A model generated the notes under the pieces. That model worked only from the letters and a program-made list of their open reading frames with translations. It was not told the DNA's origin and made no database searches. A DNA stretch of 33,364 bases, taken from contig JAUVSF010000004.1 of assembly GCA_030597245.1 (NCBI GenBank), forward strand, positions 1-33,364, written 5' to 3'. A program made the position numbers and the translations under genes. Shown piece by piece: positions 1,584 to 13,635 of this stretch (positions are counted from its first letter, which is position 1; each line of letters starts with the position of its first letter). Source of the stretch: Acidobacteriota bacterium. GTDB taxonomy: Bacteria; Acidobacteriota; UBA6911; RPQK01; JAPXNP01.

Positions 1584-1625
1584 CAACTCCCAACTCCCAA
1601 TTCCCACTCCCCAGCCCCCAGTTCC
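1584..1625. repeat. Degenerate heptanucleotide tandem array (6 units)
   Basis: CAACTCC CAACTCC CAATTCC CACTCCC CAGCCCC CAGTTCC in unbroken 7-nt register, ending at the stop codon of the next gene. Confidence 0.8.
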
Positions 1626-7221: not shown

Positions 7222-7371
7222 GTCTTGGGTCTTGGGTCTCGGAGTCTCGGGGATTTTAACCAGCAAAGCACAAAGACACTAAGAATTCTTTGTGACTTGG
7301 GACCTCGATCACCGATCACCGATTACCGATCACCGATCACCCTCCTTCGCTGAAGCTATGGAGGGCAGGCC
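7222..7371. repeat. Composite repeat: 7-nt arrays, CACAAAG palindrome, CGATCAC heptad array and 24-nt hairpin
   Basis: GTCTTGG GTCTTGG GTCTCGG (7222-7242); CAGCAAAGCACAAAGACACTAAGAATTCTTTGTGACTTGG; CGATCAC CGATCAC CGATTAC CGATCAC CGATCAC (7306-7340); CCTCCTTCGCTGAAGCTATGGAGG (7341-7364). Confidence 0.85.
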
Positions 7372-10867: not shown

Positions 10868-11719
10868 ATGAAGAACAGCGCTATTCTGTTGATTAGCTGT
10901 CCTGACCGCAAAGGACTGGTAGCCGGCATTGGCGAGTTCCTGTACAAACGCAACGCGAATGTTCTCCATGCGGATCAACATCAGGACAGCGAGACAGATC
11001 TCTTTCTGATGCGTGTGGAGTGGGATCTGTCTGAGTTTGAATTAGCAATGGAGGATTTTGAGACGGAGTTTTCCCCGCTTGCTCACGACTTGGGGATGGA
11101 CTGGAAGCTCAGGCTGTCCTCGATCCGGCAGCGAGTGGGCATCTTCGTCTCGCACTATGATCACTGCCTTGCCGATCTTCTTTACCGACAGCGCAGCGGA
11201 GAGTTGAGCTGTGAATTCCCTTTGATTATCAGCAACCATGAGACTGCCCGGGAATTGGCCGAGTTCTATCAGATCCCTTTCCATTTTATCCCCGTGAAAG
11301 ATAACAAGGTTAAGGTCGAGAAGCGACAACTCGAACTCCTTCAGGAGCATGAGATTGACCTCATCGTCCTGGCTCGTTACATGCAGATCTTGACCAGCCA
11401 TTTTGTTGGTTGTTACCCGCAGCAGATCATCAACGTTCACCACTCGTTCCTGCCGGCGTTCAGTGGAGCGCGACCTTATCATCGGGCCTTCGAGAAGGGC
11501 GTCAAACTGATTGGAGCGACCAGCCATTATGTGACTCCGGAACTGGACGAAGGTCCGATCATAGAGCAGGACGTCATTAGAATCTCCCACCGTGATCAGT
11601 TGAATGACCTGATCCAGAAGGGTCGTGACCTCGAGAAGATCGTGCTTTCCAGAGCCGTGCGCTGGCACATCGAGCACCGGATCCTCACTTATTCCGGGAA
11701 GACCGTAGTCTTCGACTGA
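10868..11719 (+). CDS. purU: Formyltetrahydrofolate deformylase
   Basis: 283 aa; N-terminal ACT domain (ILLISCPDRKGLVAGIGEFLY), LIISNHETARELAEFYQIPFHFIPV, VLARYMQILTSHFVGCYPQQIINVHHSFLPAFSGARPYHRAFEKGVKLIGATSHYVTPELDEGPIIEQDVIRI. Confidence 0.97.
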   Translation: MKNSAILLISCPDRKGLVAGIGEFLYKRNANVLHADQHQDSETDLFLMRVEWDLSEFELAMEDFETEFSPLAHDLGMDWKLRLSSIRQRVGIFVSHYDHCLADLLYRQRSGELSCEFPLIISNHETARELAEFYQIPFHFIPVKDNKVKVEKRQLELLQEHEIDLIVLARYMQILTSHFVGCYPQQIINVHHSFLPAFSGARPYHRAFEKGVKLIGATSHYVTPELDEGPIIEQDVIRISHRDQLNDLIQKGRDLEKIVLSRAVRWHIEHRILTYSGKTVVFD

Positions 11720-11740
11720 CGGGAATGTGAAATTCGTCTC

Positions 11741-11949
11741 GGGTCTTGGGGCTTGAAGAAAGTGCGAAGTGCGAAGTGCGAACGACGAAGGTCGAACGAT
11801 CACCGAGCATCCTCCTTCGCTAAAGCTACGGAGGACAGGCGGAGCACGAACGAAGATACCAAGCCCCAAGCCTCAGGTCTCAAGCCCGGTTCCACCCCGA
11901 TAACCGATCACAGATTGCCGATCACCGTTTACTACTTACTACTTACTCC
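11741..11949. repeat. Composite heptad-phased repeat with central 24-nt hairpin
   Basis: 10 consecutive 7-nt units 11741-11810 (including GTGCGAA x3, CGATCAC), hairpin CCTCCTTCGCTAAAGCTACGGAGG 11811-11834, 24-nt spacer, then 13 consecutive 7-nt units 11859-11949 (CCAAGCC x2 ... TTACTAC x2, TTACTCC). Confidence 0.9.
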
Positions 11950-11961
11950 CCACCGGCCCTG

Positions 11962-13635
11962 CTATCCTTCCAAACCACGCCTGAGGACAACTATCGTCAT
12001 GTCATCCTGCAGGGTCGCTTGACCACCAAAATCCTTGATCGAAGTCTGTAATGTGTCGAGTATCTCCTGGGCACATAATTCCTTTGCATCTTGAATGACG
12101 CCTCTTAATCTTGACTCTCCGAATTCGTCATCGTCTTTGTTCCTTCGTTCCGTGACTCCGTCCGTAAAGAGGACAAGGACTTCTCCCGAACCCAAGCTCG
12201 TCTTACCCTCCTCATACCCTCTCTCGGGAAAGATACCCAAGGGGAGGCCCGTGGCTGGAAGGCTTTTCACTCCTCTGCCAACGATAAGTGGTGCATTGTG
12301 GCCGGCATTGGCGAATCGGAGGCTTCCTGTTGCAGGGTCCACCTCGCCGTAGAAGAAGGTGATATATGTTCCAGGGCTCGAACTCTCGAAGATGAATGAA
12401 CTCAGATCGTGGAACAGTTCCGGGAGAGATCTGCCGAGCCGGAGTTGGGAACAGAAGAAGGCTCGCAAAGTTGCCATTAACAAGGACGGCCCCAGACCTT
12501 TTCCGGATACGTCACCAATCGCCACACCAAATCGCCCTCCTTCGAGCGGGAAGAAGTCATAGTAGTCACCCCCGACTTGGAAACAGGGCACCTGGAACGC
12601 AGCAAGGTCGAATCCGGGAGTCTCGGAGTAGCCACGGGGCAGAAGACCTTTCTGGATTTCAGAGGCGAGCGAGAGTTGCTCTTCAAGAGCTCTTTTTTCG
12701 AGGGCCTCTTCAAAAAGCCTGACATTTTCGATTTTGAGAGCAGCCATATTGGCAAGAGAGGATAGGAGGCAGAGATCCTGCTTGCTGAATGGTTCCTGAT
12801 CTACTCCTCGATCCAGATAGATTAGGCCGACCACGCGTTTTTCGCTCCACAGCGGCGAGCAGATTGCCGAATGTACATTGTCCTCGAGTACGCTGTCACT
12901 GGCCTCAAAGCGTTTATCGAGCTGAGCATCGCGTGTCAGCAGAGAGGCCTTGCTCTCGAAGACGGCGTTCACTATGGAACGACTTATTGGAATAGGACTC
13001 TTTGTGTTGCCACCTCCAAAGACACGGATTGCCTGTGGGTGGAGTTGATCGATGTCCTCGTTTCGCAGCATCAGCACCCCTCTTCGAGCTGGGACAGCCC
13101 TGCTCACAAAATCCAAGGTGAGGTCCAGAACAGGTTGTAAGTGGGTGTGAGCCAATAGCTCCACACCGAAATCTCTCAATGAGAAGATCGCTTGATCCTG
13201 CGTGGGGTGAAGAAAAGAGCGCACTTCCTTCCCTTGACCTGATTGGCCTGGTCGGTAGTCTCTGATCAACTTCCCAACCGGGAAAGAAAGTTCTCCGCCA
13301 GGGTCGGTTTGCAGCTGGTCATCGATTTGGATTTCGCCGGCGTCTGCGGTGAAACGCAACTCAGTGCCGCCGATTGATATCAGGTCCCCGTCGTTCAGTG
13401 CCTGTCGGCCTTGGACTATCTCGCGGTTGAGATAGTTACCATGTGTGCTTTGAGTGTCTTCAACAAAGAACTGGTCGTCGGCGTAGGAGATCATGCAGTG
13501 CAGGCGGGAGGTTCGGGAATCATCAATCGGAAGGTCACTGTTCTTGGCCCGGCCGATCGAAGTTACCTTGAGGGGCAGGGTGTAGGTGACAGATTTTTGA
13601 AAAGGTGGAAAAACTGTCAATTTTGCCACAAGCAC
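11962..13635 (-). CDS. FHA-GAF-PP2C/SpoIIE (RsbU-like) serine phosphatase
   Basis: 557 aa; FHA: VTSIGRAKNSDLPIDDSRTSRLHCMISYADDQFFVEDTQSTHGNYLN; GAF: VFESKASLLTRDAQLDKRFEAS..ICSPLWSEKRVVGLIYLDR; PP2C: EIQKGLLPRGYSETPGFDLAAFQVPCFQVGGDYYDFFPL..VAIGDVSGKGLGPSLLMA..GEVLVLFTDGVTERRN. Confidence 0.95.
   Translation of the reverse strand: MLVAKLTVFPPFQKSVTYTLPLKVTSIGRAKNSDLPIDDSRTSRLHCMISYADDQFFVEDTQSTHGNYLNREIVQGRQALNDGDLISIGGTELRFTADAGEIQIDDQLQTDPGGELSFPVGKLIRDYRPGQSGQGKEVRSFLHPTQDQAIFSLRDFGVELLAHTHLQPVLDLTLDFVSRAVPARRGVLMLRNEDIDQLHPQAIRVFGGGNTKSPIPISRSIVNAVFESKASLLTRDAQLDKRFEASDSVLEDNVHSAICSPLWSEKRVVGLIYLDRGVDQEPFSKQDLCLLSSLANMAALKIENVRLFEEALEKRALEEQLSLASEIQKGLLPRGYSETPGFDLAAFQVPCFQVGGDYYDFFPLEGGRFGVAIGDVSGKGLGPSLLMATLRAFFCSQLRLGRSLPELFHDLSSFIFESSSPGTYITFFYGEVDPATGSLRFANAGHNAPLIVGRGVKSLPATGLPLGIFPERGYEEGKTSLGSGEVLVLFTDGVTERRNKDDDEFGESRLRGVIQDAKELCAQEILDTLQTSIKDFGGQATLQDDMTIVVLRRGLEG

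Follow-up and report, generated by a model that had tools for sequence, protein, structure and literature searches.

Heptanucleotide arrays and a 30-nt REP-like hairpin in an intergenic mosaic of an Acidobacteriota genome

We have characterized an intergenic region at positions 11741-11949 of a 33,364-nt stretch of Acidobacteriota DNA (hereafter, the window). It is probably a fast-evolving mosaic of two independent components, namely heptad arrays that turn over through slippage and recombination, and a 30-nt REP-like hairpin that was inserted or copied into place. The arrays are of a known kind, and the hairpin looks like an undescribed tiny mobile element. An earlier note on this DNA had described a single, hairpin-centred composite in which the 7-nt phase is kept while the unit sequence changes. 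All strings that it listed were located where it had placed them, and its 7-nt period proved to be real, genome-wide and far above chance in a shuffle test and an array census. The single composite did not hold up: most arrays lack a hairpin, array-free hairpins are present in other genomes, and the distributions differ, with genus-specific words versus a hairpin found across many phyla.

The earlier note had divided the region into block 1 (11741-11810), a 24-nt hairpin (11811-11834), a further 24 nt (11835-11858) and block 2 (11859-11949). The features recognized here are listed below, with G001 denoting the congener Acidobacteriota bacterium CSMAG_2587.

1584..1621, + strand: third heptad array of the window, CAACTCC words
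7222..7370, + strand: second mosaic, with GTCTTGG words and CGATCAC x5 followed by another hairpin element (24-nt core at 7341-7364, GGAGG-G-CAGG)
10868..11719, + strand: purU-like formyltetrahydrofolate deformylase (ACT and formyl transferase), upstream flank
11736..11809, no strand assigned: left heptad block, with inverted CAAGACC-family words (GGGTCTT GGGGCTT), GTGCGAA x3, CGACGAA, GGTCGAA and one CGATCAC
11745..11755, - strand: CTTGGGGCTTG, an 11-nt perfect inverted copy of 11860-11870 and probable arm for inversion between congeners
11810..11839, + strand: 30-nt hairpin element T-CCTCCTTCGCTAAAGCTACGGAGG-A-CAGG, with an outer 6-bp stem (including T11810:A11835), conserved 3x3 internal loop, inner GC stem, tetraloop TAAA and CARG tail; supported by borders, covariation, copy number and a hairpin-less congener allele
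11842..11875, + strand: 34-nt block GAGCACGAACGAAGATACCAAGCCCCAAGCCTCA, inverted at 88% identity at the G001 orthologous site
11859..11893, + strand: CAAGCCC-family heptads, direct orientation
11897..11947, + strand: CGATNAC heptads grading into TTACTAC heptads, kept at the G001 orthologous site
11962..13635, - strand: FHA-GAF-SpoIIE/PP2C phosphatase gene, convergent flank

Lag-7 identity over the 209 nt (11741-11949) is 0.53, compared with 0.254 +/- 0.031 in dinucleotide-preserving shuffles (z 8.9). No shuffle among 2000 attained this value, even with the highest of lags 2-30 counted for each, and harmonics appear at 14 and 21. Taken singly, the blocks give 0.65 and 0.61, and the 48 nt separating them show no 7-periodicity. 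The array starts at about 11736 rather than 11741. The "24-nt spacer" of the earlier note is not a unit: the hairpin element takes up its first 5 nt (ACAGG), which are followed by a GAGCAC/GAACGAA-type repeat. An 89-aa open frame (11753-12022, + strand) crosses the arrays and contains SSFAKATED, derived from the hairpin, with no Pfam match. It is almost certainly not a gene, and such frames could be annotated as hypothetical proteins; arrays and hairpin alike give rise to spurious open reading frames. Elsewhere, positions 1466-1568 of the window, along with loci L008, L225 and others, carry short mixed repeats with 8-nt-like units (CACGAAGT, CACCAAGT, TTTGCGTC) at the same intergenic sites.

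Comparison with G001, in which the purU protein is 95% identical, revealed extensive turnover at the orthologous site. The flanks are 85-91% identical and both mosaic ends are conserved, with the core replaced. The 34-nt block (window 11842-11875) is inverted, adjoining an 11-nt inverted word pair, CTTGGGGCTTG/CAAGCCCCAAG. The hairpin is absent, and removal of 30-31 nt from the window sequence gives the best fit to this hairpin-less allele (score 32-33 vs. 26). In eight more orthologous gaps the position is likewise constant while the content has been replaced, and the L205/L036 orthologous site displays an in-register 37-nt difference that corresponds to the 30-nt hairpin plus one word. Among the few orthologous pairs compared, whole-block replacement outweighs copy-number change. 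As a separate observation, two similar insertions of ~190-215 nt in the window's own genome (L174:11422-11610 and L221:215-432) have inverted TTCGAAGCTCGAAATTCGAAACAA-like ends, are missing from the G001 orthologous sites and look like a MITE-type element.

The hairpin element is 30 nt long and follows the consensus Y-CCKCCTTCGCYRARGCTWYGGMGG-R-CARG (in full, Y-CCKCC-TTCGC-YRAR-GCTWY-GGMGG-R-CARG). Conservation begins abruptly at -1 and decays past +29; the borders are Y at -1 and CARG at +26..+29. In 118 loci from many phyla, pair -1/+25 covaries, with 99/118 Watson-Crick combinations versus 54 when shuffled, as do pairs 3/22 (102/118 vs. 61) and 11/14 (111/118 vs. 60); the next outward pair, -2/+26, displays no covariation in these loci. 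Because -1/+25 lies beyond the search pattern, its covariation was not imposed by the pattern. A long-loop variant, CCKCCTTCGCTCTNCGAGCTAYGGMG, with a CGACAGGT-type tail and the same outer stem, is found mostly in GGCATCC arrays (L200, L208, L234, L282 and others), with 7 copies in the own-genome sample, 8 in G001 and 2 elsewhere.

The earlier note's proposal that the hairpin is a repeated element was borne out: 46 copies occur in the window's own genome at <=3 mismatches, with none for the reversed pattern. Thus the element has other copies in the genome and the 7-nt autocorrelation exceeds shuffles, the two points on which that note had staked its reading. Overall, 46-49 copies were counted in the own genome, 55 in G001 and 47 in G007, which belongs to another family; G010, a congener of G007, has none. 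Exact pattern matches occur in 12/149 Acidobacteriota genomes. All 29 genomes reached via named records, which were chosen for having a hairpin match and include G001, carry 1-75 copies, with 0 control matches. These records include Bradyrhizobium, Niastella, Opitutae, Omnitrophota-like, Gracilibacteria and Azambacteria, and the near-identical 30-nt sequence is present in Acidobacteriota, Bacteroidota, Verrucomicrobiota, Pseudomonadota, Patescibacteria and others. A plasmid search returned matches at chance level only, and copies are scarce in viral contigs (104 stretches among 2.9 million). At four loci of other phyla (L060, L065, L074, L076), the hairpin adjoins apparent tRNA genes, as judged by eye. 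Six 16-nt hairpin strings and the peptide FAKATEDK were unmatched in the open-access papers searched; a description elsewhere under another name is possible.

The junctions between hairpin and arrays are precise. For 36/36 hairpins lying between CGATNAC words in two congeners, excision of 30 nt restores the 7-nt phase, although these are not independent events, since CGATNAC-flanked copies could descend from a few insertions copied with their flanks. In 12 array-flanked loci with other words, from other genomes and viral contigs, only offsets 37, 44, 51 and 58 stand out. Tandem direct hairpin copies are frequent and lie 37 nt apart, with one word between them. The 209 hairpin loci outside arrays show neither a clear 7-bp direct repeat at offset 37 nor a target-site duplication signal. 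Given that a 30-nt cut restores the phase and that no 7-bp repeat is found, the hairpin acts as a block of exactly 30 nt with no target duplication, and the heptads are not its footprints. The phase cut, the non-array loci and the congener allele alike fit insertion without target-site duplication, as in REP/IS200-type elements.

These properties make it conceivable, and we put this forward tentatively, that the CARG-tagged hairpin is an undescribed cross-phylum mobile family, moved precisely and without target duplication by a putative trans-acting, probably single-strand, enzyme, with the arrays as a favoured harbour. That it is instead a classical REP moved by a host RAYT (TnpA-REP) seems rather unlikely. 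Its size, copy number, extragenic position, compensatory changes and stem with conserved mismatches are all REP-like, target duplication is absent, and the own genome encodes two Y1 genes, one RAYT-like (C238) and one IS200-like (C520). However, the GTAG foot is missing, and no RAYT-like or other Y1 transposase gene was found in 222 hairpin-centred loci with single-sequence phmmer queries, which remote RAYTs may escape, although RAYT genes are typically flanked by their own REPs (PMC3733652, PMC6006769). Nor do Y1 transposase counts track hairpin counts among 60 relatives; for example, G019 has 19 Y1 genes and 0 hairpins.

The arrays were surveyed in an own-genome sample of 80 contigs (678 kb, N runs excluded) from a draft assembly of 748 contigs; the sample was chosen partly for hairpins, with extra hairpin-bearing contigs included. 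It contains 121 period-7 arrays, versus <=9 for any lag other than multiples of 7 and ~0 in shuffles; this excess of 7-nt tandem arrays over other unit lengths is what characterizes bacterial heptanucleotide simple sequence repeats. About ten word families occur (CGATNAC, CAAGACC, TTACTAC, GGCATCC, CATTTGT, CGAAGTG/CGAAGTT, CGAACGA, CGATTTN, AACTCCC). Arrays are mostly intergenic, and their density between convergent genes is 2.1-3.1 per kb vs. 0.8-1.2, with genes taken as simple ORFs. The variable position 5 of CGATNAC (T150/C120/A90/G11) gives a striking 6+1 pattern. As a general rule, "6 fixed + 1 variable base" was rejected, since per-array concentration elsewhere is mild (0.39 vs. 0.33).

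A threefold CGATHAC pattern has 292 matches in the own genome and 370 in a congener; beyond the genus, its frequency does not exceed that of its reversed control (2 vs. 3 of 58 genomes). The single-contig genome G002, of the same family, matches the reversed control word (CAHTAGC x3) 52 times and is a heptad-rich genome with another vocabulary. Arrays are therefore common and vocabularies lineage-specific. A vocabulary common to several phyla was considered and rejected: 11/52 leading words are shared, a figure that carries no composition control, and CGATHAC is at control level outside the genus. Heptad arrays of other genomes are concentrated around the hairpin, with a density 4.8 times higher inside 120 nt of it than elsewhere (467 vs. 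98 per Mb).

The earlier note had taken the pattern to suggest a mechanism that maintains 7-nt spacing even as the words change. A single locus cannot reveal phase retention, since a new word is divisible into 7-mers at any rotation. Across two genomes, the 41 junctions that join different words give an in-phase identity of 2.22/7 versus 1.41-2.05 at other shifts, and CGATNAC/TTACTAC junctions have offsets of 3, 3, 3, 5, 5, 2 and 6; together, these fail to demonstrate that the phase is kept, and the proposed mechanism is unsupported. We regard it as improbable that the spacing itself is selected, for instance by an oligomeric DNA- or RNA-binding protein that leaves the unit sequence free and carries the phase through changing words. 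Period 7 is exclusive in the own genome, cold-shock proteins bind with one protein per heptamer (PMC4679880), and the junctions show that slight in-phase excess. Against this, the excess is small, with shift +1 nearly equal, the same two words differ in offset between loci, neighbouring words are randomly oriented, and arrays avoid promoters relative to convergent ends.

There is very little chance that the whole 209 nt constitute one structured RNA or a regulatory 3' UTR: the hairpin folds as RNA (-10 to -14 kcal/mol, computed) and the region lies between convergent gene ends, but the region as a whole folds no better than its shuffles (DNA parameters, z -0.43), there is no Rfam match and the sequence is replaced in the congener, and a structured RNA across the whole region was rejected. 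Least credible of all, and largely refuted by the 209 non-array loci, is the idea that rounds of hairpin insertion and loss generated the heptads as 7-bp target-site duplications; the words flanking hairpins at 37 = 30+7 nt, tandem hairpins one word apart and the heptad enrichment near hairpins would suit it, but a clean 30-nt insertion into an array yields the same geometry and most arrays are hairpin-free.

We thus return to the two-component mosaic, in which we infer slippage and recombination as drivers of the arrays, and mobility of the hairpin. Heptad words would be gained and lost in 7-nt steps by strand slippage or unequal exchange, and blocks could be exchanged, replaced and inverted via recombination or template switching among hundreds of dispersed copies of the roughly ten word families. 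Slippage or unequal exchange with recombination between dispersed arrays would explain replacement at fixed sites, inversion between inverted words and the mixing of families. CGATNAC units are barely sorted by variant (adjacent-identical 0.246 vs. 0.232 in within-array shuffles), which is less local sorting than fresh slippage leaves, so slippage alone is not favoured. Arrays may persist because their sites disrupt nothing, above all between convergent gene ends. The hairpin would insert into, or be copied between, array sites as an exact block without target-site duplication, and its 30-nt step would fit either movement as single-stranded DNA by a putative HUH-type enzyme acting in trans or copying together with its flanks by recombination.

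Heptad arrays have long been noticed in bacterial genomes and are still without explanation. Array turnover could be studied to advantage in this genus, where some ten word families coexist and block replacement and inversion are plain between congeners. Heptameric repeats are in excess in bacteria, with polymerase-contact slippage proposed as the cause (Mrazek 2007, as relayed in PMC4679880 and PMC4692102). Known heptads include TAACTGA in Beggiatoaceae, GGGAATC in Xanthomonas, GGGACCG in Geobacter metallireducens (PMC2700814) and the cyanobacterial STRR. As far as Mrazek (2007) is represented in those sources, the present arrays resemble such repeats in their 7-nt tandem unit, degeneracy, mostly intergenic position and tens to hundreds of sites per genome, and Xanthomonas heptad arrays likewise vary in length and sequence between close relatives. 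Unlike in known heptanucleotide repeats, about ten genus-specific word families are mixed and inverted within one site, blocks are rapidly replaced between congeners and a hairpin element is embedded. Cyanobacterial STRR would belong to the same kind, and the host here is an acidobacteriote.

The hairpin is the less expected part, being a near-single 30-nt sequence with covarying pairs and exact borders across phyla. REP palindromes fall into the GTAG and CGTC super-families (Di Nocera et al. 2013, PMC3733652). Like REP elements (PMC3733652), the hairpin is an imperfect palindrome of 20-40 nt with many copies, an extragenic position with convergent bias, compensatory stem changes, a short unpaired tail and a patchy distribution. 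Unlike REPs, it keeps nearly one sequence across many phyla, often occurs as tandem direct copies at 37 nt, and has a CARG tail (CYTG on the other strand) in place of a GTAG foot or, as far as could be compared, a CGTC foot. The marks of the GTAG super-family were absent, both the unpaired GTAG (or GTRG/GYAG) at the hairpin borders and a repeat-flanked RAYT among the 222 loci queried by single-sequence phmmer. The CGTC super-family is described by a CGTC/TGTC/CCTC tag, a stem opening with two A-T pairs and a CCA tail; the hairpin stem opens Y:R then C:G, unlike this A-T rule, and TGTC can be read across the reverse-strand border. With respect to RAYT/TnpA-REP systems (PMC2817692, PMC6006769), hairpin insertion without target duplication would fit an HUH enzyme, whereas no RAYT gene was found near any hairpin copy at those 222 loci. 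Should the hairpin prove mobile, one could test which enzyme moves it and how it passed between phyla.
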